NCBI RefSeq assembly: GCF_030758935.1
Contig: NZ_CP132333.1
Span: forward strand, 2,356,992-2,420,991
DNA from: Geothrix sp. PMB-07
GTDB lineage: Bacteria; Acidobacteriota; Holophagae; Holophagales; Holophagaceae
Length of the DNA: 64,000 nucleotides
Direction: 5' to 3'
Positions 20,691 through 54,395 of the stretch are shown one piece after another. A program made the position numbers and the translations under genes. Under the pieces are notes generated by a model. That model was not told where the DNA came from. It searched no databases and saw only the letters and a program-made list of their open reading frames with translations. Numbering within the stretch: the first letter of the stretch is position 1; each line of letters opens with the position of its first letter.

Positions 20691-21455
20691 ATGAAAGCCC
20701 TGATCATTGACGACGAGGAACTGGCCCGCGCCGTGGTACGCGAGCATCTGGCCGCCCACCCGGATGTGGAAGTGGTTGCCGAATGCGCCAACGGATTTGA
20801 AGCCATCAAGGCGGCTGCCCAGTTCCAGCCCGACCTCATCTTCCTGGACATCCAGATGCCCAAGCTGGATGGCTTCGAGGTGCTGGAACTGCTGGAAGCC
20901 GAAGGCAAGCGGCCCGCCGTGGTCTTCGTCACCGCCTACGATCAGCACGCCCTGCGGGCCTTCGAGGCCCATGCCGTGGACTATCTGCTGAAGCCCTTCT
21001 CGAAGGATCGCTTCGACGGCGCCTTGGCCAAGGCGCGAGCCCTCCAGTCGGCCCAGCCCGCGAGCGCTTCCACGCCTGCAATCACCGCCACGGAATTGGC
21101 CACCTCCGCCCGCCAGGGCAAGCCCCTGGAACGCATCGTCGTGAAGGATGGCCCCAAGGTCACCGTGGTGCATCTGGACCGCCTGGACTGGGTGCAGGCC
21201 CAGGACGACTACGTGCTGCTGCGCACCGAGGGCAAGAACCTGCTCAAGCAACAAACCCTCGCCAGCCTTGAGGCTCAGCTCGATCCGAACCGCTTCATCC
21301 GCATCCACCGCAGCTACATCCTGAACCTGGACCGGCTCGTGCGGGTGGAGCAGGACACGAAGGAACACCGCGATGCCATCCTGCGGGATGGCGCCCGGCT
21401 GCCCGTCAGCCGCGCCGGGTACCAGCGTCTGCGGGAACTGTGGGAAGGCGCCTGA
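20691..21455 (+). CDS. LytTR-family response regulator
   Basis: Protein of 254 aa. The receiver domain has D7/D8, phospho-acceptor D53 (FLDIQMPKLDGF) and K in LLKPFSKD. The C-terminal LytTR DNA-binding domain is clear from TLASLEAQLDPNRFIRIHRS, LNLDRLVRV and LPVSRAGYQRL. The true start is taken as ATG 20691. Just upstream a near-duplicate of the start, encoding MKGLIP and a stop, overlaps this ATG (see findings). It is the output of the LiaF/LytS operon; the promoter targets are unknown. Confidence 0.95.
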   Translation: MKALIIDDEELARAVVREHLAAHPDVEVVAECANGFEAIKAAAQFQPDLIFLDIQMPKLDGFEVLELLEAEGKRPAVVFVTAYDQHALRAFEAHAVDYLLKPFSKDRFDGALAKARALQSAQPASASTPAITATELATSARQGKPLERIVVKDGPKVTVVHLDRLDWVQAQDDYVLLRTEGKNLLKQQTLASLEAQLDPNRFIRIHRSYILNLDRLVRVEQDTKEHRDAILRDGARLPVSRAGYQRLRELWEGA

Positions 21456-38675: not shown

Positions 38676-38701
38676 TCTGAATCCTGGATCCAGATTCTAG
38701 A
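38676..38701. promoter_or_regulatory. Candidate activator-binding dyad
   Basis: Imperfect 26-bp dyad TCTGAATCCTGGA / TCCAGATTCTAGA, centred on ggatcc, about 110 bp upstream of the sigma-54 -24 element and touching the end of the NtrC-type gene. This is the usual distance for an upstream activating sequence. A single site was found, so it remains a candidate; a role as part of a terminator is possible. Confidence 0.45.
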
Positions 38702-40052
38702 ATTTGGACGCGTCGGAACCGTAAGCCTTGAGCTTCTGGTAGAGGGTGCTTCGGGGGATGTCCAGCCGCTGTGCCGCCCGCCCAACATGCCCATCCTCCT
38801 CGCCAAGAACCTTGAGGACGTACTGCCGTTCGAGCTCCCGCAGGGTCAGATGGGTGGACGTCTCTGGCTGCCGACCGCCGGGGCTGACGGCGAAATCCAG
38901 ATCCTCGGCCTCGATCACTGAGGACTTCACGCCCATCAGGGCCCGCTCCAGGACGTTCCGCAGTTCGCGGATGTTCCCCGGCCAGACATGCCTTTGCAGC
39001 TTCGCCAGCGCGCCTTCGGAGAGGCGCATGGCCGCCCGCCCGCAGTCGCTGGTCAGGCGGTTGAGGAGGATCTGTGCGAAAACGGGGATGTCCTCCGCCC
39101 GTTCGCGCAGGGGCGGCACCGCAATCTGGATGGCGCTGATGCGATAGAAGAGGTCGGACCGGAACTGCTGCTCCTGCACCAGCTGATCCAGCTTCTGGTG
39201 GGTGGCGGCGATCAGGCGGAAATCCACCTTCCGATCCTGGACTTCACCCAGGCGCCTGAAGCGTTTCTCCTCCAGGGCCTTGAGGATTTTCGGCTGGATC
39301 TGCAAATCCATGTCGCCAATCTCATCCAGGAACACCGTGCCGCGGTGGGCGGCCTCCAGCAGACCCACCTTGACCGCCGTCGCCCCGGTAAAGGCGCCCT
39401 TCTCGTGACCGAACAGTTCGGTATCCAGCAACTCCTTGCTGAAGCCGCCACAGTTGAGCTCCAGGAGGGGCTCAGCAGAGCGGGAGCTGTTCCGGTGGAT
39501 CCAGCGCGCCAACTCGCTCTTCCCGGTTCCCGTCTCTCCCTGAATGAGGATGGGGCTTTCGGTGGCAGCGGCGAGTTGCGATTGTTCCTGCAGCCGCCTG
39601 ATGGCGGGGCTCTGGCCGATGAAGGGGTCCACCGCCCGCTGCGGCTGGTCCACCGACTTGCGGGCCAACTGCTTTCGCCGGTTCTGCTGGTTCTCGAGCA
39701 CCCGGTCCAGCACCACCAGGAGGGCTGGCAGATCCAGTGGCTTTACCAGAAACTGCTCAGCCCCAAGCTGAATGGCCTGCACGGCCAAGTCGATGCGCGC
39801 GTGGGCCGTGAGCAGGATGATGGGCACGCCATCGTCAATGGCCTTCAGCTTGGGAAGCAGTTCCAAGGCGTTCCCGTCTGGAAGCGAATAGTCCAGGGTG
39901 ACGGCGTCGTAGACATCCGCGCGGTAGCGGATCTCCGCCTCGGCGCAGGTCTCGGCCTCATCCACGCTATAGCCATGGAGCTCGAGGTAATCCTTCAGGG
40001 CGAAGAGAATGATCTCGTCGTCATCCACCACCAGAATCTTCGCTTTCGCCAT
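38697..40052 (-). CDS. NtrC-family sigma-54-dependent response regulator
   Basis: Protein of 451 aa in three domains. The receiver has phospho-acceptor D54 (TLDYSLPDG). The AAA+ domain has Walker A GETGTGKSE (172-180), the sigma-54-contacting GAFTGA loop (219-224) and Walker B VFLDEIGD (240-247). The C-terminal Fis-type helix-turn-helix is VGRAAQRLDIPRSTLYQKLK. It starts eight bases after the kinase gene ends, hence a two-component pair. The downstream beta-helix gene carries a perfect sigma-54 promoter and is its likely target. Confidence 0.96.
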   Translation of the reverse strand: MAKAKILVVDDDEIILFALKDYLELHGYSVDEAETCAEAEIRYRADVYDAVTLDYSLPDGNALELLPKLKAIDDGVPIILLTAHARIDLAVQAIQLGAEQFLVKPLDLPALLVVLDRVLENQQNRRKQLARKSVDQPQRAVDPFIGQSPAIRRLQEQSQLAAATESPILIQGETGTGKSELARWIHRNSSRSAEPLLELNCGGFSKELLDTELFGHEKGAFTGATAVKVGLLEAAHRGTVFLDEIGDMDLQIQPKILKALEEKRFRRLGEVQDRKVDFRLIAATHQKLDQLVQEQQFRSDLFYRISAIQIAVPPLRERAEDIPVFAQILLNRLTSDCGRAAMRLSEGALAKLQRHVWPGNIRELRNVLERALMGVKSSVIEAEDLDFAVSPGGRQPETSTHLTLRELERQYVLKVLGEEDGHVGRAAQRLDIPRSTLYQKLKAYGSDASKF

Positions 40053-40059
40053 GGGTGCC

Positions 40060-41223
40060 TCAGGCCTGGGCGGTTGGTTGTGCGGGAGGGACTTGGGCTG
40101 AGGGCAGCATGAAGCTGATCCTCATGGTGCCGCCCTGGGGCCCGGGCCCGGCGGTGAGCGTGCCGCCGTGGGATTCAAACACCCTGCGGGCGCCCGGAAG
40201 GGTGAGGCGGCCCAGTCCCGAGGTGCGGAAGTAGAAGGGCTCGAAGAGGCGGGCCGGATCGACATTCTTGAACTTCAGGCTGGAGCAATCCACATGGCCG
40301 CACACCACTGTCCGTTCCCCGAACAGCCCTTTCCCCACGTGCAAGACCACGTGCCCACCCACCTCCTCCTGGTGCAGCACCAGATCCACCAACCGCGTGA
40401 ACGAGGACTGCAAGCAGTGCTCGTCCATGTTGATGGCCGGAAGGGGCCCATCCACCTTGAGCTGGAGTTGCACCCGGGCTTTCTCCGCCTCGGCCTTGTG
40501 GCAGTCGATGGCCTCGCGCAGGATGGGCCCCAGTTCGCGGACCGACCAGGAGAACCGTCCAGGGTCGCCATAGTCACGCAGCTCCTCGTTGAAGGCGTTC
40601 ATGCGGTCGAGGCTTCGCCGGATGTTGGCTCCGTATTTCCGGACATCCTCCAAATCCGCGAAGCGTGCCTCAAAGGCATCCAGGTTCGCCGAAATCCCGA
40701 AAATGAAACTGCCCAACTCGTGGACCAAGCCAGGCACAAAGGAGGTGGCCGAGGGGGCGCGGGGCGTGGCCCTGGTTTCCATCCGGTGATGGTCCGTGGT
40801 CAGGAAAGCTTCGATCTGGTCAGCGGCCACCCTCAGGCCTTCCTTCTGCGGATCGCTCAACACCACAGGGGTGTGTGATAGGGCGCAGAGTGTTCCGATG
40901 TTCCGCTGGTAGAGGTCCATCATGGGCAGAGCCTCGAGGATCAGCAGCTCCTGCTCCTTCAGCAGGCGGTCCCGCGAGGCCTCCGTAGAACCCTGGGCCA
41001 AGGCCCATTCCAGCGCAGCCATCTGCTCTTCGGTCAGGCCACTGCCATCCCGATACCAGACGCCCGAATCGTCCTGGAGAATCAGCGCCATGGCAGTCCC
41101 TGTGAAGGCGGCGCACAGCAGGATCCAATCCCGGAGGCGGATCTCAGGGTGCGACTCGGTGAATCCGTGCCGAGGCGAGATCTCGGATTTGGATGCATCT
41201 GGCAGTGGACCGTTGGAATTCAT
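40060..41223 (-). CDS. Sensor histidine kinase, divergent ATPase domain
   Basis: Protein of 387 aa. A single hydrophobic segment (about 34-50) and a GAF-like region (about 60-140, with LCALSHTPVVLSDPQKEG) lie before the dimerisation segment with H168 in PGLVHELGSFIFG. The ATP-binding domain is recognisable at the end (GLGRLTLPGARRVFESHGGTLTA, then GGTMRISFMLP), but the usual N-box Asn is not evident in the CLQSSFTRLVDLVLHQ stretch. ATG 41223 is preferred; a TTG nine codons earlier is possible. Paired with the NtrC-type regulator downstream. Confidence 0.85.
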   Translation of the reverse strand: MNSNGPLPDASKSEISPRHGFTESHPEIRLRDWILLCAAFTGTAMALILQDDSGVWYRDGSGLTEEQMAALEWALAQGSTEASRDRLLKEQELLILEALPMMDLYQRNIGTLCALSHTPVVLSDPQKEGLRVAADQIEAFLTTDHHRMETRATPRAPSATSFVPGLVHELGSFIFGISANLDAFEARFADLEDVRKYGANIRRSLDRMNAFNEELRDYGDPGRFSWSVRELGPILREAIDCHKAEAEKARVQLQLKVDGPLPAINMDEHCLQSSFTRLVDLVLHQEEVGGHVVLHVGKGLFGERTVVCGHVDCSSLKFKNVDPARLFEPFYFRTSGLGRLTLPGARRVFESHGGTLTAGPGPQGGTMRISFMLPSAQVPPAQPTAQA

Positions 41224-41319
41224 GGAGACGCCCCGTCGAGACTGCTTCAATCGTCAGATTGGCAGCCCTTGATGAGGTTGGGAATAATCTGCATAGATTC
41301 ACCCCAAGAAAAGTTTCAG

Positions 41320-42735: not shown

Positions 42736-43078
42736 GCGCCACCCCCCAGTGTGATTCGAGGGAATCCTCCCATGAAGATCCCGAATCGCGGATCGACGCG
42801 ACCAGCACACCCGCATGCGCCAGAAGAATCCCGGCCTTGGAACCGGCGCCCTGGACACGATTTCGTGCGGCATCAGCTTTCACATGAAGCCATTGGAATT
42901 CCACCTGAAATGATCACACGAACCAAGCGTCACCATTGTAAAAATAATTTCTCTGGCAGCAGGTAACTGAAAATTTATAAGATGATCCATTGATCCCCGT
43001 GAACCCCTCGTGCGGGAATTCATCTCAAGCCGATTTCAATCGAACGGCCTTAGTTTCAGTTACCAGTGGAGGAATGTC
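42736..43078. other. Divergent intergenic region, AT-rich
   Basis: About 343 bases between the divergent beta-helix and tviB genes. The part near 42934-42990 is AT-rich (taaaaataatttc, gaaaatttataag) and should hold promoters for one or both genes. A GG-N10-GC match (plus 42887-42903) was considered as a weak sigma-54 site. No gene was found. Confidence 0.45.
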
Positions 43079-44353
43079 ATGCGGATTGCAGTCGTCGGCC
43101 TGGGATATGTCGGGTTGCCACTTGCCCTGGAGCTCGCGAAGAAGTTTCCCGGGACCGTGGGATTCGACATCCATGAAGCCAAGATCGCGGAACTGAAAAA
43201 GGGCGTCGACCGCACCCGGGAAGTTTCGCCCGACGCCCTGCGCACCACCACCCTGACCATGACCAGCGATCCTGAGGGCATGCGTGGAGCGGACTTCTTC
43301 ATCGTCGCAGTGCCGACGCCCATCGACGGCTGGAAGCGCCCGGACCTGACACCCGTGGTCAAGGCCAGCGAAACCGTGGGCAAGGTCATCGGCAAGGGCA
43401 GCATCATCGTCTACGAAAGCACGGTCTTCCCCGGCGTCACCGAGGACATCTGCGGGCCCATCCTGGAAAAGCAGTCCGGCCTGAAATGTGGCGTGGACTT
43501 CAAGCTCGGCTACTCGCCTGAGCGCATCAACCCCGGCGACAAGGTCCACACCGTGGATCGCATCGTGAAGGTGGTCTCGGGGCAGGACGAGGAAAGCCTC
43601 CGCACCATCGCTGGCGTCTACAGCGCCGTCATTTCGGCGGGCGTGCATGAGGCCTCCTCCATCAAGGTGGCCGAGACCGCCAAGGTGATCGAGAACACCC
43701 AGCGCGACATCAACATCGCCCTCATGAACGAGCTCGCCATCATCTGCGAGAAGGTGGGCATCCGCACCTCCGAGGTGCTGGCTGCGGCCCGCACCAAGTG
43801 GAACTTCCTGCCCTTCAGCCCGGGTCTGGTGGGTGGCCACTGCATCGGCGTCGATCCCTACTACCTCACCACCAAGGCCGAGGAGTTGGGCTACCACCCC
43901 CGCGTGATCCTGGCGGGCCGCCAGATCAATGACGACATGGGTGCCTACGTGGCCCGGAAGCTGGTGAAGCTGATGATCCAGCAGCAGATTCCTGTGAAGA
44001 AGGCCCGGGTGGGCATCCTGGGCCTCACCTTCAAGGAGAACGTCCACGACATCCGCAACAGCAAGGTGCCTGACATCGTCGCCGAGCTTCAGCAGTTTGA
44101 CATCAGGCCCATGGTCTGCGATCCCATGGCGGATCCGGCGGAGACCCTGCATGAATACGGCCTGCAGCTCTGCAAGCTGGAGGAGATCCGCGATCTCGAC
44201 GCCCTGGTGCTGGCCGTTAACCACAAGGTCCTCCTGGACATGGGCCTGGACGGCATCCGGGCCTGCATGAAGGAGTCGGCGGTGTTCATCGATGTGAAAT
44301 CGGTCTTCGCCCCGGGAGACTTCCCGCAGGGCATCGCCTACTGGAGCCTGTGA
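43079..44353 (+). CDS. tviB: UDP-N-acetyl-hexosamine 6-dehydrogenase (TviB/VipA family)
   Basis: Protein of 424 aa. The N-terminal Rossmann motif is VVGLGYVGLP, the catalytic Cys lies in GGHCIGVDPYY, and the C-terminal UDP-binding domain starts near LGLTFKENVHDIRNSK. The length and the KWNFLPFSPGLVGGHC context are those of TviB/WbpO-type enzymes, which oxidise UDP-GlcNAc or UDP-GalNAc to the uronic acid. The ATG at 43079 has GGAGG. It is followed after 3 bases by a TviC-type epimerase, the pair known from Vi antigen and B-band O-antigen synthesis. Confidence 0.93.
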   Translation: MRIAVVGLGYVGLPLALELAKKFPGTVGFDIHEAKIAELKKGVDRTREVSPDALRTTTLTMTSDPEGMRGADFFIVAVPTPIDGWKRPDLTPVVKASETVGKVIGKGSIIVYESTVFPGVTEDICGPILEKQSGLKCGVDFKLGYSPERINPGDKVHTVDRIVKVVSGQDEESLRTIAGVYSAVISAGVHEASSIKVAETAKVIENTQRDINIALMNELAIICEKVGIRTSEVLAAARTKWNFLPFSPGLVGGHCIGVDPYYLTTKAEELGYHPRVILAGRQINDDMGAYVARKLVKLMIQQQIPVKKARVGILGLTFKENVHDIRNSKVPDIVAELQQFDIRPMVCDPMADPAETLHEYGLQLCKLEEIRDLDALVLAVNHKVLLDMGLDGIRACMKESAVFIDVKSVFAPGDFPQGIAYWSL

Positions 44354-44356
44354 TTC

Positions 44357-45382
44357 ATGCGATTCGACGAAGTCCTCGCTGAACTGAAGGCCGCTCCCAA
44401 AACCTGGCTGGTGACCGGCGTGGCCGGCTTCATCGGCTCGAACCTGCTGGAAGCCCTGCTGAAGGCAGGCCAGACGGTGGTGGGCCTCGACAACTTCGCC
44501 ACGGGCTCGCAGGCCAACCTTGATGACGTGAAGGGTGTCGTCGGGCCGGAGGCCTGGGCCCGGTTCAGCTTCATCCACGGCGACATCCGCAACCTGGCGG
44601 ATTGCCAGCGCGCCTGCGAGAACGTCGACTATGTCCTCCACGAGGCGGCTCTGGGTTCGGTGCCCCGCTCCATTGAGGATCCCATCGCCACGAACCAGGC
44701 CAACATCGATGGGTTCCTGAACATGCTGGTGGCGAGCCGGGATCAGAAGGTGAAGCGCTTCGTCTACGCCGCCTCCAGCTCCACCTACGGCGACCACCCC
44801 GACCTGCCCAAGCGCGAGGACAAGATCGGACAGCCGCTGTCGCCCTATGCCGTGACCAAGCTGGTGAACGAGCTGTACGCCAAGGTCTTCGGCAACACCT
44901 ATGGCCTGCAGACCATCGGCCTGCGGTACTTCAATGTCTTCGGTCGGCGCCAAAGTCCCAACGGACCCTATGCCGCCGTCATCCCCCTCTGGATCGCGGG
45001 TCTGATGCGCAAGAAGGCCGTGGCCATCAATGGCGACGGGGAGACCAGCCGAGATTTCTGCTACGTCGAGAATGTGGTTCAGGCAAACCTGCTGGCGGCC
45101 ACGGCCACCAATCCTGACGCCAGCAGCCAGGTCTACAACGTCGCCTTCGGGGGCCGCACCACCCTGAACCAGCTGCACGAGAAGTTGCGTACACGTCTCG
45201 CCCGCCACGATGCGGCCATCGCCGCTCTGGAACCCGACTACCGCCCCTTCCGCGGCGGCGACGTCCGCCACTCCCAGGCCGACATCTCCAAGGCGGCTGG
45301 CCTGCTGGGCTACGCGCCGCAATTCGATGTGGATCGCGGTCTGGACGAGGCCCTTGCCTGGTACCGGGCGAACCTCGGATGA
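44357..45382 (+). CDS. tviC: UDP-N-acetyl-hexosaminuronate/hexosamine C4-epimerase (TviC/WbpP family)
   Basis: Protein of 341 aa, an extended short-chain dehydrogenase. It has the NAD+ motif [10 protein letters not shown], catalytic SSSTYG and PYAVTK (Tyr-x3-Lys) and the family stretch [20 protein letters not shown]. It is longer at the N-terminus than GalE, as in WbpP/TviC. With TviB it is expected to yield UDP-GalNAcA. It overlaps the next gene by four bases (ATGA). Confidence 0.93.
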
Positions 45383-46491
45383 GGGTGGCGGTCTTCGGGA
45401 GCTATGCCCCGTCCCTGTGGCTGTTCCGCGCTCCCATGATGCGGGCCATGGTGGCTGCGGGCCACGAGGTCATCGGCCTTGCCCCCGATGGCGACCAGGT
45501 GCTGATCGATCACCTGGCCTCCATCGGCGTGGCCTATCGGCACGTCCCCCTGGGGCGCACCGGGCTCAATCCCCTGGAGGACCTCCGCTCCATCCTGGCC
45601 ATTCGCGCCGCGCTCAAGGAGCTGAAGCCCGATGTCCTGCTGAGCTACACCATCAAGCCCGTGATCTACGGCTCCTACGCCGCGTCCCTGGTTGGCGTTC
45701 CCCATTGCCACGCCATGGTGACAGGGCTGGGCTCCAGCCTCATGGGAGAGGGTTTCAAGCGGAAGTGCATGGCCTTCCTTTCCAAATGGCTCTACCGCAA
45801 AGGACTGGCCCGAGTCGAAGGGGTCTTCTTCCAGAACCCTGACAACCAGGCCTTCTTTGAAGCGAACCGCCTGCTCCCGGCCACCTGCCGGATTACCCAG
45901 ATCAATGGCTCCGGCGTGGATCTGGCGCAGTTTCCCCTGACGCCCCAACCCGCGGTACCGCTCACCTTTCTGCTGGTCGGCCGCATGACCCGCGAAAAGG
46001 GCATCGTGGAATTCGTCGAGGCGGCGCGGCGCATCAAGGCCAAGCACCCGGCGACCCGGTTCCACCTGCTGGGTGGCTACGACACCAATCCCAGCGCCAT
46101 TTCAGAGGCTCAGATCCAGGCCTGGGTGAACGAAGGGGTGGTCCAGTATTTGGGCACGGTGAAGGATGTGCGCCCCATGCTAGCCGAAGCGCAAGTCATG
46201 GTGCTGCCCAGCTATGGCGAAGGGACGCCACGTTCCGTGCTTGAGGCCATGGCCATGGGCCGGGCGGCGGTGACCACCCTGGCCCCCGGCTGCAAGGAGA
46301 CCGTCATCGATGGCCAAACGGGATTTCTGGTGCCCCCGAAAAACATCGAAGCCTTGACGGAGGCCATGGAGCGCTTCATCGCTGATCCTGGGCTCGCCAC
46401 CCGCATGGGGATTGCCGCCCGGGCCTACGCCGAAGACAAGTACGACGTGGACAAGGTCAACGCCGTGATCATGAAGGCCATGGGCCTTTGA
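45379..46491 (+). CDS. GT4-family glycosyltransferase (PglA-like)
   Basis: Protein of 370 aa. The GT-B fold starts with [20 protein letters not shown], and the [20 protein letters not shown] and VTGLGSS stretch is typical of the WbpX/PglA-type group that adds GalNAc or related residues to a lipid-linked first sugar. The donor-binding [14 protein letters not shown] is present. It is translationally coupled to tviC, so it may use its product. The acceptor is unknown. Confidence 0.88.
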
Positions 46492-46618
46492 TGGGCGGCC
46501 TGGGAAGCGCGGGCCCCCTCGCCCTCCGCCTTCCAAGGCTTTCCCGGCCCGGCCGGCATCGTTCCGAATGCGATGGATGCCGGTTCCTGGGTATCTTGAA
46601 TCCCTGCCTGGAGTGCTC

Positions 46619-48493
46619 ATGCGCATCGGCTTCATAGGACTCGGCACCATGGGCCAGCCCATGGCCCGCAACCTCCTGGGCCTTGGGCATGCATTGACTG
46701 TCTACAACCGCACACCAGGCCGTGCCAAGGCCCTGCTCACATTGGGGGCCAAGGAGGCAACCAGCATTTCGGATGCGGTCAAGGAAGCCGAGGTGGCCAT
46801 TACCATGGTGTCTGACGATCAGGCTGTGTCGGAACTGGTGTATGGCCCCGGCGGCCTGCTCCAGTGCCTCGCCCCCAAGGCCATCCACCTTTGCATGAGC
46901 ACCATCAGTGTCGAAACCTCTGCGGCACTTGCCTCAGCCCACGCCAAGGCGAACCAGGGCTATGTGGCCGCACCGGTATTCGGCCGGGCCGACAGCGTCG
47001 AATCCCGCCGCATCTGGATCGTGGCCGGCGGGCCCGAGCCCCAAGTCAACCGCTGCCTCCCCATCTTCGTGGCCCTGGGCCGCGACCATACCCGTGTGGG
47101 TTCCAAGGCCTCCCTGGCCCACGCCCTCAAGCAGGGCGGCATGACCCTCAGCCGGGCCATGGAAGAGGCCGTGGCCCAGATCCTCGGCTTCGCGGAGAAG
47201 GCCGGCATGGATCACTCGAACTACCTGCGCCTGCTGAACACGGCGATCTTCAAATCCCATCTGGTGGACGCCAATGGCGCCGTCAGCATCCGCCCCTCCT
47301 TCGACCCGAGGGACCAGTCCCTGGATCTGGCCGCCAACGAGATGCTGTTCCACGCGGCACGACGGGTGGGCGTGCCGGTTCCCGCCTCGGATTTGCTCAA
47401 CGTGCGCCTCCAGGCCGCCGGCGCCCGGGGCTGGGGCGAGCAGGACCTCGCTGCCCTGTCAGAAGATCCGGATCCCACCGAGGCCCCGGCATCGACCGCG
47501 CCGGAATCGCCCACTTCGGCCCCTCCGGTTCCGGAACCTTCGCATGCGGAAGAAGCCGACGTCGAAACACCTCCACCGTCCCCTGACCCCCCTCCACCAC
47601 CGCCAGTGGAAACCCCCATCGCCGTTGAAAAGCCAGCCACACCGGAACCGCCAGCCCCTGTTGTAGTCCCGGTTGTGCCCCCGGTGAAGGCCCAGCCAGT
47701 CCCCGCGGTGAAAGCTCCTTCTTCATCAGCAACTGCCAAGAAAACCCCGAACGTGCCTGCACCCACCCGCGGCGTGCCTCCCGTGCGAATCCCCACGCCG
47801 GTCTTCAAGCCGATTCCCCCGCCCGGGCCGCCATCGGTGCCTGTGCAGATTCTCAGCAACCTTTCACCCTCCGCCCAATCGGCGCCCACCTTGGTGCTGA
47901 AGGTGATTCCCGCACCCCTTCCTCCCCTCGCAGGCGCCGCACCTTCCCGGTCAACCAGCGCCAAACCCCCACGCCGGAACCCGGAACGGCGGAAGGGCAA
48001 CGATCCGAAGCGCTCCCAATCCCGGCGCCAGGAAGAGCGCAGGGCCATTCCCCCTTCGGCGGAAACGCCAAGCCAGGCTCCCGCCCCGGAACCAGCCCAG
48101 ACTCCCAAACCAGCTCCATCACCCACTCCGGCAACGCCTGTCAGCGCACCCAGACGGCTCTCCTCCGACACGTTCACCGCCGTGGAAGGTGGCTCCGAAG
48201 TGCTGATGGACCTGGAACAGACCAGTCATTTTGAAGTGATCATGGGCCAGGTCTGGGCCTGGTCCCAGGGCAAGCGCTACCACACACCCTGGCGAACCTT
48301 GGCCGAAGTGGAAGGGGCCTTCAAGCACGTCCTCTTCCTGCCCATCAAGCGCCACCTTCTCCTGCGCCCTGAGGCCGTCCAGAACCTGAAGCCGACCTTC
48401 GGCGGTGGGGCCAAGGCGGACATGGGTGGCAACCAGGAGATCGATGTGGGCCGTGCCGCCGCCCAGCGGCTCAAAGAGCTGCTCGGGCTCTGA
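46619..48493 (+). CDS. Beta-hydroxyacid dehydrogenase fused to a LytTR-like domain
   Basis: Protein of 624 aa in one intact frame. Residues 1-160 are a Rossmann domain (RIGFIGLGTMGQPMARNL, VYNRTPGRA) and 165-285 the helical domain of the 3-hydroxyisobutyrate dehydrogenase family, with the family Lys at K171 (HALKQGG) and the APVFGR variant of the substrate loop. About 286-520 is a Pro/Ala/Val/Ser-rich low-complexity linker with a basic patch near 450-475. The last about 95 residues resemble LytTR: RTLAEVEGAF, FLPIKRHLLL, then IDVGRAAAQRLKELL. ATG 46619 has GGAG. The fusion is unusual (see findings). Confidence 0.8.
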   Translation: MRIGFIGLGTMGQPMARNLLGLGHALTVYNRTPGRAKALLTLGAKEATSISDAVKEAEVAITMVSDDQAVSELVYGPGGLLQCLAPKAIHLCMSTISVETSAALASAHAKANQGYVAAPVFGRADSVESRRIWIVAGGPEPQVNRCLPIFVALGRDHTRVGSKASLAHALKQGGMTLSRAMEEAVAQILGFAEKAGMDHSNYLRLLNTAIFKSHLVDANGAVSIRPSFDPRDQSLDLAANEMLFHAARRVGVPVPASDLLNVRLQAAGARGWGEQDLAALSEDPDPTEAPASTAPESPTSAPPVPEPSHAEEADVETPPPSPDPPPPPPVETPIAVEKPATPEPPAPVVVPVVPPVKAQPVPAVKAPSSSATAKKTPNVPAPTRGVPPVRIPTPVFKPIPPPGPPSVPVQILSNLSPSAQSAPTLVLKVIPAPLPPLAGAAPSRSTSAKPPRRNPERRKGNDPKRSQSRRQEERRAIPPSAETPSQAPAPEPAQTPKPAPSPTPATPVSAPRRLSSDTFTAVEGGSEVLMDLEQTSHFEVIMGQVWAWSQGKRYHTPWRTLAEVEGAFKHVLFLPIKRHLLLRPEAVQNLKPTFGGGAKADMGGNQEIDVGRAAAQRLKELLGL

Positions 48494-48670: not shown

Positions 48671-49873
48671 ATGGCCCTGACTCCCGTCCCCACGCTCAAC
48701 CGCTGCGCGCCCTTCTCGCCTTGGCCCCACTACGCTGCCGACGAGGTGGAAGCCGTGGCCCGCGTCATGGCAAGCGGCAAGGTGAACTACTGGACCGGAA
48801 CCGAGGCCCGGGAGTTCGAGACCGAATACGCCGCCGCCTCTGCCTGCGACAAGGCCATTGCCCTCTGCAACGGCACCGCGGCCCTGGAGCTGGCCATCCA
48901 GGCCCTGGACATCCCGCCCGGTTCGGAAATCATCACCACGCCCCGCACCTTCATTGCCAGCGCCAGCTGCGCGGTGATGCGCGGCTGCACCCCCGTGCTG
49001 GCCGACGTGGATCCGGTCAGCCAGAACATCACGGCGGAAACCATCCAGAAGGTGATCACCAGCAAGACGAAGGCCATCATTCCCGTCCATCTCGGTGGTT
49101 GGCCCTGCGACATGGACCCCATCATGGACCTGGCCTCGCAGCACGGCCTGAAGGTCATCGAGGACTGCGCCCAGGCGAATGGCGCCACCTACAAGGGGCG
49201 CCCCGTGGGCAGCCTGGGCCACGTGGCCGCCTTCTCCTTCTGCCAGGACAAGATCATCACCACCGGCGGTGAAGGTGGTCTGGTCACCACCAACGATCCC
49301 GAGGTCTGGCGCCGCGCCTGGAGCTTCAAGGATCACGGCAAGAGCTGGGCGGCGGTCTACGAAACCCAGCACGCGCCCGGCTTCCGGTGGCTGCATGAAT
49401 CCTTCGGCACCAACTGGCGCATGACCGAGATCCAGGCCGTCATCGGGCGCCTGCAATTGAAGAAACTGCCGGAGTGGACGCGGATCCGCCAGGCGAACAT
49501 GGCCCGGCTCAACGCCGCCTTCCAGGCCTTCAGCTGCATCCGCACCACGCCGACGCCCGCCCACATCGGTCACGCCGCCTACAAGGCCTACGTGTTCGTG
49601 CGTCCGGAGCACCTGCGCGATGGCTGGAACCGCGACCGCATCATGGAGGAGATCAACGCCCGTGGCATCCCCTGCTTCAGCGGCAGCTGCAGCGAGATCT
49701 ACCTGGAGAAGGCCTTCACCCAGAGCGGCCTCGGCCCCAAGGAACGCTTCCCCGTGGCCCGGGAACTGGGAGAGACCAGCCTGATGTTCCTCGTTCATCC
49801 AACTCTCACGCGGCAGAACCTGGACGACACCATCGCCGTCGCCTCCGATGTCTTCAGCCAAGCCTCCCGCTGA
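48671..49873 (+). CDS. DegT/DnrJ/EryC1/StrS-family aminotransferase
   Basis: Protein of 400 aa, a PLP enzyme acting on nucleotide-linked keto-sugars. PLP-binding K194 lies in FSFCQDKIITTGGEGG, the aspartate of the ring N is D165 (VIEDCAQANG), and NGTAALELA is the phosphate site. Such enzymes make 4-amino-4,6-dideoxy or 3-amino sugars such as the bacillosamine precursor. It ends five bases before the sugar transferase gene, so they are likely coupled. Confidence 0.92.
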   Translation: MALTPVPTLNRCAPFSPWPHYAADEVEAVARVMASGKVNYWTGTEAREFETEYAAASACDKAIALCNGTAALELAIQALDIPPGSEIITTPRTFIASASCAVMRGCTPVLADVDPVSQNITAETIQKVITSKTKAIIPVHLGGWPCDMDPIMDLASQHGLKVIEDCAQANGATYKGRPVGSLGHVAAFSFCQDKIITTGGEGGLVTTNDPEVWRRAWSFKDHGKSWAAVYETQHAPGFRWLHESFGTNWRMTEIQAVIGRLQLKKLPEWTRIRQANMARLNAAFQAFSCIRTTPTPAHIGHAAYKAYVFVRPEHLRDGWNRDRIMEEINARGIPCFSGSCSEIYLEKAFTQSGLGPKERFPVARELGETSLMFLVHPTLTRQNLDDTIAVASDVFSQASR

Positions 49874-49877
49874 GCCC

Positions 49878-50558
49878 ATGACGGCCCGCCGCCCCCTTTA
49901 CCAGTTCACGAAACGAGCCCTGGATCTGCTCTACGCCCTCCTGCTGCTCCCGCTGCTCGGGCCCGTGATGCTGATCGTCTGGGTGCTCGTCCGCTGGAAA
50001 ATGGGCAGTCCGGCGGTTTTCAAACAGGTGCGTCCCGGCCTGGATGCCCGCCCCTTCGTCATCCACAAGTTCCGCAGCATGATCGACGCCTATGACGCTG
50101 AAGGGAACCCCCTGCCCGACAAGGAACGCCTCACCACCTTCGGGCGCCTGCTGCGCCGCTCCAGCCTGGATGAGCTTCCCCAATTGCTGAACGTGTTGAA
50201 AGGCGACATGAGCTTTGTGGGCCCCCGCCCGCTGCTCATGGAATATGTGCCCCGCTACTCGCCCGAGCAGCGCCGTCGCCTCGATGTCCGGCCAGGCATC
50301 ACCGGCCTGGCCCAGATCGCCGGGCGGAACACCGTGGCCTGGGATGAGCGGTTGGCCCTCGACGTGAAATACGTGGACGAGGCTTCCGTCTGGCTCGACC
50401 ATCTGATCCTCCTCCGCACAGTCAAAAAGGTGCTCCGCTCCGAAGGGGTTCCCACCTCAGGGCTGGATCCGAACGAAAAATTCCAGGGCACTGCCAAGCC
50501 TGACAGCGGTTCCATGGAACCTTCAGCGCAGCCGAACAAGGATTCCGCAAACCTCTGA
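49878..50558 (+). CDS. Undecaprenyl-phosphate sugar-1-phosphate transferase (PglC-like)
   Basis: Protein of 226 aa with one N-terminal hydrophobic re-entrant segment (about 13-38) and the compact catalytic domain of monotopic phosphoglycosyl transferases: FKQVRPG, VIHKFRSM, then SSLDELPQLLNVLKGDMSFV and GPRPLL. The DE dyad of the SLDELPQ motif is intact. Its size is that of PglC rather than the long WbaP/WcaJ proteins. It should start the repeat unit on undecaprenyl phosphate. ATG 49878 is preferred; an ATG at 49848 inside the previous gene is the alternative. Confidence 0.92.
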   Translation: MTARRPLYQFTKRALDLLYALLLLPLLGPVMLIVWVLVRWKMGSPAVFKQVRPGLDARPFVIHKFRSMIDAYDAEGNPLPDKERLTTFGRLLRRSSLDELPQLLNVLKGDMSFVGPRPLLMEYVPRYSPEQRRRLDVRPGITGLAQIAGRNTVAWDERLALDVKYVDEASVWLDHLILLRTVKKVLRSEGVPTSGLDPNEKFQGTAKPDSGSMEPSAQPNKDSANL

Positions 50559-50590
50559 AGCTCGACCGAGCTCCCTCTGAATCATTCCTG

Positions 50591-50662: not shown

Positions 50663-51487
50663 ATGGCTTCGATGCGCCCTCCCGAAAAAGGCCCCCTCCC
50701 CCCACTCAAGACAGCCATGCCACAGGCCTCGGGCCTGCCGATGCGCAGGCCTGTCCTGAACTCGGCGCAGGCTCAGTCAGGTGTGGGCGAATCCCAGGTC
50801 GAAGCCACCGAATGGTGTGCATTGGTGGTGGAAGACGAGCCCCTGACCCGAACCACCATCCGCGCCACGCTGTTGAAGGAGGGCTTCAAGGTTCTCGAAG
50901 CGGAAAGCGGCGAGGAGGCCCTGGGCCTCTTCGACTCGGCCACGCCCCATGTGGTGATCCTGGATATCGGCCTGCCTGGACTCAATGGTTTCGAGGTATG
51001 CCAGAAGATCCGCGCGAAGCGGGAAGATACGGGCATCCTCATGCTCACGGCGCGGACTGATCCCGAAGACAAGATCACAGGCCTCACCCTCGGCGCCGAT
51101 GACTACCTGGTCAAACCCTTCAACCCCGGTGAGCTGATCGCCCGCATCCGAGCTGTGCTCCGGCGCTCTGCCCTGATGAATCATGCGGAAGAGCCCCTGG
51201 TCTTCGGCAACCTCTGTCTGGATTTCCAGGCCCAGCAGGCCCTGAAGAACGGCGTCGACGTGAACCTGTCTCCGCGGGAATTCATGCTCCTGGCCATCCT
51301 CCCGCGCCACCCAGGCCAGGTCATGACCCGGGATCAGCTTGGCAAGGAAGTCTGGGGCGCGAACCACCGCGGCAACGCACGCGCCCTGGATGTCTTCGTG
51401 TGCAAGCTCCGCGAAAAGATCGAAGACGATCCCACCACCCCGCAGATCATCCGCACCGTCCGCGGCGCGGGCTACATCTGCGGCTGA
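50663..51487 (+). CDS. OmpR/PhoB-family response regulator (orphan)
   Basis: Protein of 274 aa. An N-terminal Pro/Ala-rich extension of about 50 residues is unusual. The receiver follows with ED near 57, phospho-acceptor D in VILDIGLPGLNG and K in LVKPFNPG. The winged-helix domain has LSPREFMLLAIL and the IRTVRGAGYICG end. No histidine kinase is adjacent. A TTGAAA...TATTTT promoter-like pair (50612-50641) precedes it. A start further in, at an internal Met (50720), would shorten the extension. Confidence 0.9.
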   Translation: MASMRPPEKGPLPPLKTAMPQASGLPMRRPVLNSAQAQSGVGESQVEATEWCALVVEDEPLTRTTIRATLLKEGFKVLEAESGEEALGLFDSATPHVVILDIGLPGLNGFEVCQKIRAKREDTGILMLTARTDPEDKITGLTLGADDYLVKPFNPGELIARIRAVLRRSALMNHAEEPLVFGNLCLDFQAQQALKNGVDVNLSPREFMLLAILPRHPGQVMTRDQLGKEVWGANHRGNARALDVFVCKLREKIEDDPTTPQIIRTVRGAGYICG

Positions 51488-52560: not shown

Positions 52561-54153
52561 TTGTCCCTCACAGCTGTCGCCACCCCTACCCCGACCCAGC
52601 GCGCCATCCAGCGCCTGCCCGCGCACCTGCGCCGCTTTGTGGTGGATCAGATCCACGAGGCCTACACCCCGCGCGATCACGCCGTGTGGCGCCACATCCT
52701 CCGGCAGCTCACCGAGCGGTTGAAGGACACGGCCCATGCGAGCTACTTGTCCGGCCTTGCGGCGACAGGCATCGGCCTCGACCGCATTCCCAGTCTGGAT
52801 GAGATGAACGAGAAGCTCGAAACCCTTGGCTGGTGCGCGGTGGGCGTGCGGGGTTTCATCCCCCCGGCGGTGTTCACCGAGCTGCAGTCGCTGGGCGTGC
52901 TGGCGGTGGCCGCCGACATCCGCAGCCACGAGCACCTCGAATACACCCCAGCGCCGGACATCGTCCACGAAAGCGCGGGCCATGCCCCCATCCTGGCCGA
53001 CCACCGCTATGCGGAATACCTGAAGCGCTGCGGCGAGGTCGGGTTCCGCGCCATCGCCTCCGTGGAAGATCAGGCCGTCTACGAGGCCATCCGCAACCTC
53101 AGCGTGGTGAAGGAGGATCCCGCAGCCACCGAAGAGGAGCTGCGACTCGCCCAGGAGCGACTGTCAGCCGCCAGCGCCAGCCGCCGCTACGTCAGTGAAA
53201 GCACCAAGGCCAGCCGCCTCTACTGGTGGACTGCGGAGTACGGCCTGGTGGGCGCGCTGTCCGACCCGAAGCTCTACGGCGCAGGCCTGCTGAGTAGCCT
53301 CGGTGAAGCCGCGCACTGCCTCACAGATGCGGTGCGGAAGGTGCCCTTGAGCCTCGTCTGCGCGGATACGGAATACGACATCACCCGCATGCAACCGCAG
53401 CTCTTCGTGGCCCGCGATTTCGACCACCTTTTCGAGGTGCTGGAAGCCTTCGAGGCCACGCTGGGCTGGCGCCGCGGCGGCGACCATGGCCTGGAAGAAG
53501 CCCTTCGGGCCCGCACCGTGAACCACCTGGTGCTGGATGGCGGCCTTGAGCTCACGGGCAAGGTCGTGGCGCGCATCCCTTCCCGCAGCGAACTGGCGCC
53601 CGGCCTGCGCACAGCCCTGGCGCGGGTGGAAGGCCCCATCCAGATCTCCCGTCAAGGCCAGGCCCTTGATCGCCCCTGGCCCGGCGAGGCCCTGGTGGCC
53701 TTCGGCAGCGGCGCTCTCCCTCATCGCGGCGCCTTCAGCCTGGATCTGCCCTCGGGCCTCTTCCTCACGGGCTTCCGCGTGGGCGAGCACGAAGTGATCA
53801 ACCTGCGAGGCCACCAGGACGGGCGGCCCCTGGACCTGCCCAGTTGGGCGCTGCTGTTCCTCAGCGGCGCCCTGCCTTCCGTGGCCGGCGGACCGGCCGA
53901 TCCGGGTTCCTGGGATCAGTGGTTCGGCGATCATTCAGCCCTGGCCGAAGGGGAAGCCGAGGCCCAGGCGCGGGACCGCAAGGCTGCGGCCCTGCCAATG
54001 GAGCTGGCCGACCTCTATGTCGAGACAGATCGCCTTCGCCGGGGCGGATCGATGGACCTGGAACGTTTGAACGCCTTGCGGGAGCGGGCCATGAAGTACC
54101 CTGGCGAGTGGCTGCTTCAGGCGGAGCTTGCGGCATTGGAGGCCCTGTCATGA
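52561..54153 (+). CDS. phhA: Long-form aromatic amino acid hydroxylase (phenylalanine 4-monooxygenase family)
   Basis: Protein of 530 aa; the usual bacterial PhhA is under 300. The pterin-dependent non-haem-iron centre is intact: H136 and H141 in PDIVHESAGH and E226 in YWWTAEYGL. The C-terminal about 200 residues beyond the catalytic domain have no recognised motif. It hydroxylates phenylalanine (or Trp) with tetrahydropterin and O2. The TTG start at 52561 is supported by GGAG. The next gene, overlapping by four bases, regenerates the pterin, which supports the role. Confidence 0.92.
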   Translation: MSLTAVATPTPTQRAIQRLPAHLRRFVVDQIHEAYTPRDHAVWRHILRQLTERLKDTAHASYLSGLAATGIGLDRIPSLDEMNEKLETLGWCAVGVRGFIPPAVFTELQSLGVLAVAADIRSHEHLEYTPAPDIVHESAGHAPILADHRYAEYLKRCGEVGFRAIASVEDQAVYEAIRNLSVVKEDPAATEEELRLAQERLSAASASRRYVSESTKASRLYWWTAEYGLVGALSDPKLYGAGLLSSLGEAAHCLTDAVRKVPLSLVCADTEYDITRMQPQLFVARDFDHLFEVLEAFEATLGWRRGGDHGLEEALRARTVNHLVLDGGLELTGKVVARIPSRSELAPGLRTALARVEGPIQISRQGQALDRPWPGEALVAFGSGALPHRGAFSLDLPSGLFLTGFRVGEHEVINLRGHQDGRPLDLPSWALLFLSGALPSVAGGPADPGSWDQWFGDHSALAEGEAEAQARDRKAAALPMELADLYVETDRLRRGGSMDLERLNALRERAMKYPGEWLLQAELAALEALS

Positions 54154-54395
54154 GCTGGATCGAGATCGACGGCACCCTGGTCCGCACCTTCAAGACACCG
54201 GACTTCCTGACCGCCTACAACCTTGTCAGCGCTCTGGTGGGACCGGCCGAAGACCTGAACCACCATCCAGACATCGCCTTCGGCTGGGGCTATGTGCGAA
54301 TCACCTTGACCACCCACGACGCGGGCGGCATCACAGAGCTGGACCACCGCTTGGCCCAGGCCATTGATCTCACCGTTAAGCCTTTTAAATTATAG
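54150..54395 (+). CDS. phhB: 4a-hydroxytetrahydrobiopterin dehydratase
   Basis: Protein of 81 aa, a compact PCD/DCoH. LNHHPDIAFGWGYVRITLTT carries the HHP catalytic motif and TTHDAGGITELDHRLA completes the family pattern. It dehydrates the carbinolamine produced by the hydroxylase. The ATG overlaps the phhA stop (ATGA), so the two are translated together. A longer frame into phhA is ignored. The protein is shorter than average (about 95-110). Confidence 0.93.
   Translation: MSWIEIDGTLVRTFKTPDFLTAYNLVSALVGPAEDLNHHPDIAFGWGYVRITLTTHDAGGITELDHRLAQAIDLTVKPFKL

Follow-up and report, generated by a model that had tools for sequence, protein, structure and literature searches.

The window analysed here is a stretch of 64,000 nucleotides from Geothrix sp. 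PMB-07. Translation of positions 46619-48493 of this stretch yields a single uninterrupted frame of 624 codons plus stop, with a GGAG at 46610-46613 ahead of the start. The start position agrees across all seven aligned fusions, whereby L064 and L065 use GTG, and the unbroken frame described in the original prediction was borne out. The gene product consists of a beta-hydroxyacid dehydrogenase fold (residues 1-283), a Pro-rich linker (residues 284-512), and a LytTR domain (residues 513-624). The linker, which had been estimated at about 230 residues rich in Pro, Ala, Val, and Ser, comprises 229 residues, 62% of which are P, A, S, or V, and measures 82-210 residues in six relatives. In the full-length model, its pLDDT is mostly below 50, and it is therefore probably disordered. 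Short basic runs are found in the linkers of some other fusions as well, two of another genus among them. No Response_reg match was obtained with Pfam for the fusion protein, which thus lacks the receiver domain of a two-component response regulator. A sensor-type domain and a DNA-binding-type domain are instead present in one chain, which is the architecture of an enzyme-derived one-component regulator. The features of the gene and its surroundings are given in Table 1.

Table 1. Features of the dehydrogenase-LytTR fusion gene and of its neighbourhood in the window
Feature	Position	Strand	Basis or remark
NtrC-type regulator	38697-40052	-	Pfam; NtrC/kinase-like homologues near the fusion in G047, G050, G009, G046
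Kinase-like gene	40060-41250	-	HisKA and HATPase under cut-off
UDP-sugar dehydrogenase, epimerase, and glycosyltransferase genes, upstream of the fusion	43076-46491	+	Pfam
Fusion gene	46619-48493	+	624 aa plus stop; identical domain order, one frame, in 10 other genomes
Rossmann NAD(P)-binding half, residues 1-160, GxGxxG retained	46619-47098	+	PF03446, 9.7e-35
Helical catalytic half, residues 161-283, degenerate	47099-47467	+	PF14833, 20.1 bits (cut-off 30)
K171, conserved family Lys	47129-47131	+	In 14/15 fused or presumed fused and 14/14 standalone rows
M175, replacing family Asn	47141-47143	+	Asn in 6/15 fused or presumed fused and 14/14 standalone rows
N240-E241, replacing Lys-Asp	47336-47341	+	Lys-Asp in 5/15 fused or presumed fused and 14/14 standalone rows
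Pro/Ala/Ser/Val-rich linker, residues 284-512, probably disordered	47468-48154	+	pLDDT mostly <50
Basic patch RRNPERRKGNDPKRSQSRRQEERR within the linker, residues 452-475	47972-48043	+	Read from sequence
LytTR domain, residues 513-624	48155-48490	+	PF04397; model pLDDT 89.4; Foldseek and VIA matches
FLPIKRH, counterpart of the LytTR motif FhRhHRS	48335-48355	+	Alignment
DegT-type aminotransferase and bacterial sugar transferase, between the fusion and the OmpR-type regulator	48671-50558	+	Pfam
OmpR-type response regulator	50663-51487	+	Pfam in the window and G046, homology in others

The assignment of the C-terminus to LytTR, which had been made by eye, was checked by Pfam and by a predicted structure. 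In the whole window protein, the LytTR profile (PF04397) covers residues 537-622 at 6.2e-5 with 23.6 bits, which is over the cut-off of 22.6, and the tail alone gives 1.9e-6 and 28.4 bits. Among the seven aligned fusions, four match the profile at E-values up to 0.01 and three are without a match; the G046 copy stays under the cut-off with 20.8 bits, and those of G079, G086, and G082 are over it. An AlphaFold2 model based on seven tails has a pLDDT of 89.4 and displays the LytTR beta-fold. The 13 best Foldseek matches to this model are all LytTR proteins, with 3d6w on top at 1.9e-6. Structural alignment by VIA-align yielded Z-scores of 13.7 for 3d6w, 11.6 for AgrA, and 10.5 for ComE, whereas the next row, an unrelated protein, has 4.6. 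A profile built from the tails alone did not match any solved structure up to E 1; when widened with response regulators, it matches 3d6w at 2.4e-10. Profile score, fold, and the Z-score of 13.7 thus agree on the LytTR identity of the tail.

The tail had also been aligned with the regulator at 20691 of the window. A LytTR kinship between the two exists, but it is distant at about 21% identity, and closer relatives are encoded elsewhere in the genome. These are six other matches to the tail, the best of which (G000:C1:4195036) is 49% identical, and all six have receiver-type N-termini as judged by reading of their translations. The regulator at 20691 was therefore rejected as the donor of the LytTR domain. 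In the tail tree, the fusion tails stand beside the 4195036-type regulators with a support of 89/89, a position which is not firm, and the root row forms a very long branch. By identity, the fusion tail is nearest to the REC-LytTR response regulators of its own genus. LytTR output and fold are shared with this type of regulator, including AgrA, ComE, and those of the same genome, but the fusion has no receiver, carries a dehydrogenase fold as its input part, and shows FLPIKRH in place of FhRhHRS. The net charge of seven tails ranges from -1 to +2, compared to +1 to +2 for the nearest regulators.

The original prediction had proposed a search for the same domain order in other Holophagae genomes. 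For the genus of the window, 47 genomes were surveyed with the dehydrogenase half as query at 1e-40. A match was found in 23 of them, one in each, nine with an identity of at least 54% and 14 with at most 50%. Eight of the nine closer dehydrogenases carry the LytTR tail in frame, and the contig of the ninth (G014) stops shortly behind the dehydrogenase. None of the 14 standalone dehydrogenase frames has a tail. With the tail as query at 1e-28, nine of the 47 genomes were retrieved, namely the eight fusions and a response regulator in G001. The scan was extended to 93 members of the class, including the 47, where a dehydrogenase match at 1e-30 was obtained for 29; six of these are new and belong to two further genera of the same family. 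Here, the one-frame fusion is also present in G079, G086, and G082, whereas contig ends truncate the copies of G083 and G084. Outside the family, the class is represented by 16 members, which gave no dehydrogenase match at 1e-30; six have weaker ones, without a tail match. It should be noted that more distant fusions would escape these searches. Overall, the one-frame fusion occurs in 11 genomes from three genera of one family, in addition to three contig-cut copies and one frame-split copy. In the frame-split copy (G081, L093:6441-8108), dehydrogenase and LytTR lie in different frames with the break in the Pro-rich linker region, which is either natural or a sequencing error. The G079 copy (L089:359-2473) has two tandem LytTR domains after the dehydrogenase, each of them preceded by a Pro-rich stretch. 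An assembly artefact or a frameshift which joined two separate genes could appeal to the split copy of G081, but for the window this explanation is refuted by the relatives, since 11 genomes show one frame and their linkers differ in length, and we regard it as practically negligible.

In a tree of 31 dehydrogenases, the fused rows of the same genus are united in one clade with a support of 100/100, and the standalone clade is placed next to it. When the other genera are included, the 15 fused or presumed fused rows join into a single group, whose support of 92/67 is not firm. The eight same-genus tails form one clade as well (100/100). For the window and its closest relative G047 (L062), NG86 dN/dS amounts to 0.04 in the dehydrogenase, 0.13 in LytTR, and 0.35 in the linker; for the window and the other five relatives, it is 0.16-0.39 in the dehydrogenase and 0.24-0.35 in LytTR, and synonymous sites approach saturation in these comparisons. 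The two folded domains evolve under purifying selection, which is much weaker on the linker. It might be that the protein is an ordinary enzyme of sugar or hydroxyacid metabolism whose LytTR tail is an inconsequential passenger, and the sugar-polymer genes around the fusion in the window, G047, and G050 would suit such an enzyme. However, the tail is under purifying selection, has been kept in three genera, and is doubled in one, and catalytic residues are lost in the genus of the window, which makes a mere passenger very unlikely.

The two halves of the dehydrogenase have fared differently. The NAD_binding_2 profile (PF03446) covers residues 2-158 of the window protein, and the three glycines of GxGxxG are present in all nine fused or presumed fused rows of the genus. 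The Rossmann score is steady, with 110-130 bits in seven fused copies compared to 115-116 in two standalone homologues. For the catalytic half (NAD_binding_11, PF14833), the standalone homologues score 78 and 82 bits, three fused copies with an intact site 47-55, and the window, G052, G046, and G079 20-37; the cut-off, under which the window protein remains, is exceeded in G052, G079, G086, G082, and G083. Mean pairwise identity among the standalone rows is 0.80 for the Rossmann and 0.86 for the helical half, whereas in the same-genus fused rows it is 0.70 and 0.57, respectively, a gap of which the wider spread of the fused clade could explain a part. Thus, the catalytic half is being eroded, whereas the part which binds NAD(P) has been preserved.

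The same picture is obtained from single residues. We compared the family Lys with the Asn and Lys-Asp positions, which we take to be active-site residues of the beta-hydroxyacid dehydrogenase family. All three are present in each of the 14 standalone rows. The 15 fused or presumed fused rows, which include three cut by contig ends and one frameshifted, retain Lys in 14, Asn in six, Lys-Asp in five, and all three in three cases. The latter are G086, G082, and the contig-cut G083, which belong to one genus other than that of the window. In the window's genus, Lys-Asp is kept in none of nine rows and Asn in three of nine. The window protein itself has K171, as had been noted before, but Met in place of Asn and Asn-Glu in place of Lys-Asp, so that the set of active-site residues is incomplete. 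The Lys is described as the catalytic residue of the dehydrogenase superfamily (PMC13144531). On the basis of these residues, we file the window dehydrogenase as a homologous domain rather than as an active enzyme, and in the clade of the window this half is probably catalytically dead or weak. Some activity may remain, as suggested by the retention of three residues in one genus and of Lys in 14 of 15 rows. The NCBIfam search gave no model near its cut-off for the window protein or for one standalone enzyme, and therefore no substrate can be named. The full-length model has a mean pLDDT of 58.8 and a pTM of 0.35, with the helical dehydrogenase half mostly below 60, and for this reason no catalytic geometry was drawn from it.

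It could also be that the protein is a trigger enzyme, that is, a working dehydrogenase which turns over its substrate, also binds DNA, and controls its own operon. The conserved Lys and the complete residue sets of G086, G082, and G083 fit this explanation, but the loss of Lys-Asp throughout the window's genus and of Asn in most of its rows, together with the catalytic-half profile of the window under the cut-off, speaks against it, and we consider it unlikely. The earlier idea of a sensor coupled to an output stands in general, whereas its wording as an enzyme that reports substrate is less well supported. Since Lys-Asp is gone in nine of nine and Asn in six of nine rows of the window's clade, a sensor of NAD(P)H or of another ligand is a better fit than a working enzyme.

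The gene neighbourhood was compared among the fusion loci. A homologue of the OmpR-type regulator lies directly downstream of the fusion in four of the eight complete same-genus cases (G052, G016, G004, and G046); in the window and in G047, the regulator follows two genes after the fusion, and none was found in the examined stretches around the fusion of G050 and G009. The gene at 40060-41250 of the window may encode a divergent kinase. In the window, G047, and G050, the fusion is placed between sugar-nucleotide, glycosyltransferase, aminotransferase, and sugar-transferase genes or their homologues. G016, G004, and G014 have a metallophosphoesterase gene just upstream and Wza/Wzc-type export genes beyond it, and G009 has a Polysacc_synt_2 gene upstream. 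In the 19.5 kb analysed for G046, there is no match at 1e-20 to the sugar genes of the window, Wza, or Wzc. The polysaccharide-locus setting of the original prediction therefore applies to the window, G047, and G050 but is not constant elsewhere, and this varying gene setting weakens the idea of a close tie to sugar genes. A connection with the control of surface polymers is plausible, though not constant. A metallophosphoesterase gene is found just upstream of a fused or contig-cut gene in four genomes from two genera (L038:9061-10260, L040:6798-7958, L037:6131-7216, and L092:809-1921). Furthermore, a gene for a biopterin-dependent hydroxylase lies downstream of the fusion in seven of the eight complete same-genus loci; in the window (52561-54392), it is followed by one for a pterin carbinolamine dehydratase.

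With respect to DNA binding, FhRhHRS is described as the most conserved, though not invariant, LytTR motif; in AgrA, R198, N201, and S202 contact the DNA, and the exchange R233A abolishes binding (PMC4227749). FLPIKRH of the window keeps the F and an Arg at the N201 position, whereas the counterparts of R198, H200, and S202 are changed. The replacement of HRS by KRH, which had been pointed out before, is thus real; the six regulators of the genome which are related to the tail carry QRH, HRH, HRG, or QRS at this place. The R198 counterpart is Arg in one of eight same-genus tails, whereas all 13 response regulators have Arg or Lys there, and a basic residue in the first strand is present in none of the eight tails compared to 12 of 13 regulators. 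The N201 counterpart is Arg in seven of the eight tails, and V-(G/S)-R near the C-terminus occurs in all eight; judged from its place there, R612 would be the equivalent of AgrA R233. For the three complete copies of the other genera, reading of the sequences (three of the four domains were aligned) gives an Arg at the R198 counterpart in all four LytTR domains and an Arg in three of four both at the N201 position and at the C-terminus. The exceptions are in G079, where Trp replaces the C-terminal Arg in the first LytTR domain and Ser occupies the N201 position in the second. The frameshifted tail of G081 reads FVRLEDG. Judged from these residues, the fusion family in general seems capable of DNA binding, the clade of the window less clearly so.

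A search for LytTR operators was carried out on 17 stretches, in which 9-mer direct repeats at offsets of 19-24 with at least eight matches were considered. No convincing direct repeat was obtained among them: 15 stretches gave none, and two gave four hits at two places, compared to a summed mean of about 2.6 in single-base shuffles. At 50551-50583 of the window, upstream of the OmpR-type regulator at 50663, two 9-mers with 8/9 identical bases are found at an offset of 22. This pair is missing at the same place in L062, the nearest relative, and likewise in four further loci, of which G046 shows another pair. The divergent promoter of the sugar operon contains a conserved block of some 50 bases (42936-42986), which ends in GAAAATTTATAAGATGAT and is shared by the window, L062, and L063. 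When up to three mismatches are allowed, a single copy of its 18-base core is present in the genome, and the block is not convincing as a LytTR site.

The R198 counterpart is lost in most same-genus tails and the first-strand basic residue in all of them, while the domain is nevertheless under selection, and this might mean that LytTR has been put to a new use as a scaffold or in protein-protein contacts. The tail would then no longer bind DNA but dock the dehydrogenase on a partner such as the neighbouring response regulator, kinase, or sugar enzymes, which would go along with the response regulator gene directly downstream in half of the complete same-genus cases. The Arg at the N201 position and the C-terminal V-(G/S)-R in nearly all or all of these tails, as well as the R198 counterpart in every LytTR domain of the complete other-genus copies, speak against such a role, and we regard it as rather unlikely.

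Each part of the architecture can be compared to known proteins. CoxC is described as an MHYT-LytTR regulator without a receiver and with a predicted disordered stretch (PMC11347149). In CoxC and RcoM, the LytTR output is part of the regulator which itself senses a small molecule, as we propose for the fusion, but the sensor of CoxC is a membrane gas-sensing domain and that of the fusion a soluble dehydrogenase fold. In BzdR, a shikimate kinase fold without detectable activity serves as the effector domain and is connected by a linker to the DNA-binding domain (PMC3602430). The combination of enzyme fold, linker, and DNA-binding-type domain is shared with the fusion, with a kinase and an HTH in place of dehydrogenase and LytTR. 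NPAC/GLYR1 is described as an NAD(P)H-binding, catalytically inert multidomain protein with a linker, which acts in gene control (PMC13144531). It belongs to the same dehydrogenase superfamily, and the solved N-PAC structure matches the window protein at 9e-25. However, NPAC/GLYR1 is a eukaryotic chromatin protein with PWWP and AT-hook in which the catalytic Lys is replaced by Met, whereas the fusion keeps K171 and gave no PWWP match in Pfam, and it is thus not a member of this group. CtBP is a corepressor which resembles dehydrogenases, is linked to NAD(H), and has a disordered tail (PMC10788531, PMC13144531); it is of the alpha-hydroxyacid type and has no LytTR, whereas the fusion is of the beta-hydroxyacid type and has one. 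In the open-licence PMC literature, with subscription papers outside this scope, no report of a dehydrogenase-LytTR pairing was among the listed matches, and the papers which contain both search concepts use the terms in unrelated places. Within this literature, there are thus precedents for each part of the idea (CoxC, BzdR, NPAC, and CtBP), and the pairing itself may be new.

Taken together, we favour a one-component regulator built from an enzyme, in which the (pseudo)dehydrogenase serves as the sensor for NAD(P)H or a ligand, the linker acts as a tether, and LytTR is the output, and we assign a probability of about one half to it. Regulator genes recur among the neighbours of the fusion, and this was counted in its favour together with the precedents CoxC, BzdR, and NPAC. 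The mostly lost R198 counterpart and first-strand basic residue in the same-genus tails and the result of the operator search count against it. The N-terminal fold would bind NAD(P)(H) or a related ligand, as is suggested by the kept Rossmann half, and would probably oligomerise, as such dehydrogenases do. The flexible Pro-rich tethers could then bring at least two LytTR domains together on a direct-repeat operator, and the tandem LytTR domains of G079 would suit a repeated operator. The ligand or the redox state would change the assembly and hence the output, with the genes of the fusion's own locus as possible targets.

The missing catalytic residues in many of the fusions suggest that an enzyme was turned into a sensor for gene control. 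Within one family, a graded series is found, from standalone dehydrogenases with intact active-site residues via fusions with an intact set to fusions with an eroded one, and the evolution of an enzyme into a transcription regulator can therefore be tested by biochemistry on natural intermediates. Tentatively, we suggest a new class of bacterial sensors, which arose in the Holophagaceae when LytTR captured a beta-hydroxyacid dehydrogenase, whose active site remained intact in one genus and was repeatedly eroded to an NAD(P)H- or ligand-sensing pseudoenzyme in others, and which might be the bacterial counterpart of NPAC and CtBP. If this is true, LytTR outputs would gain a cytoplasmic metabolic input.
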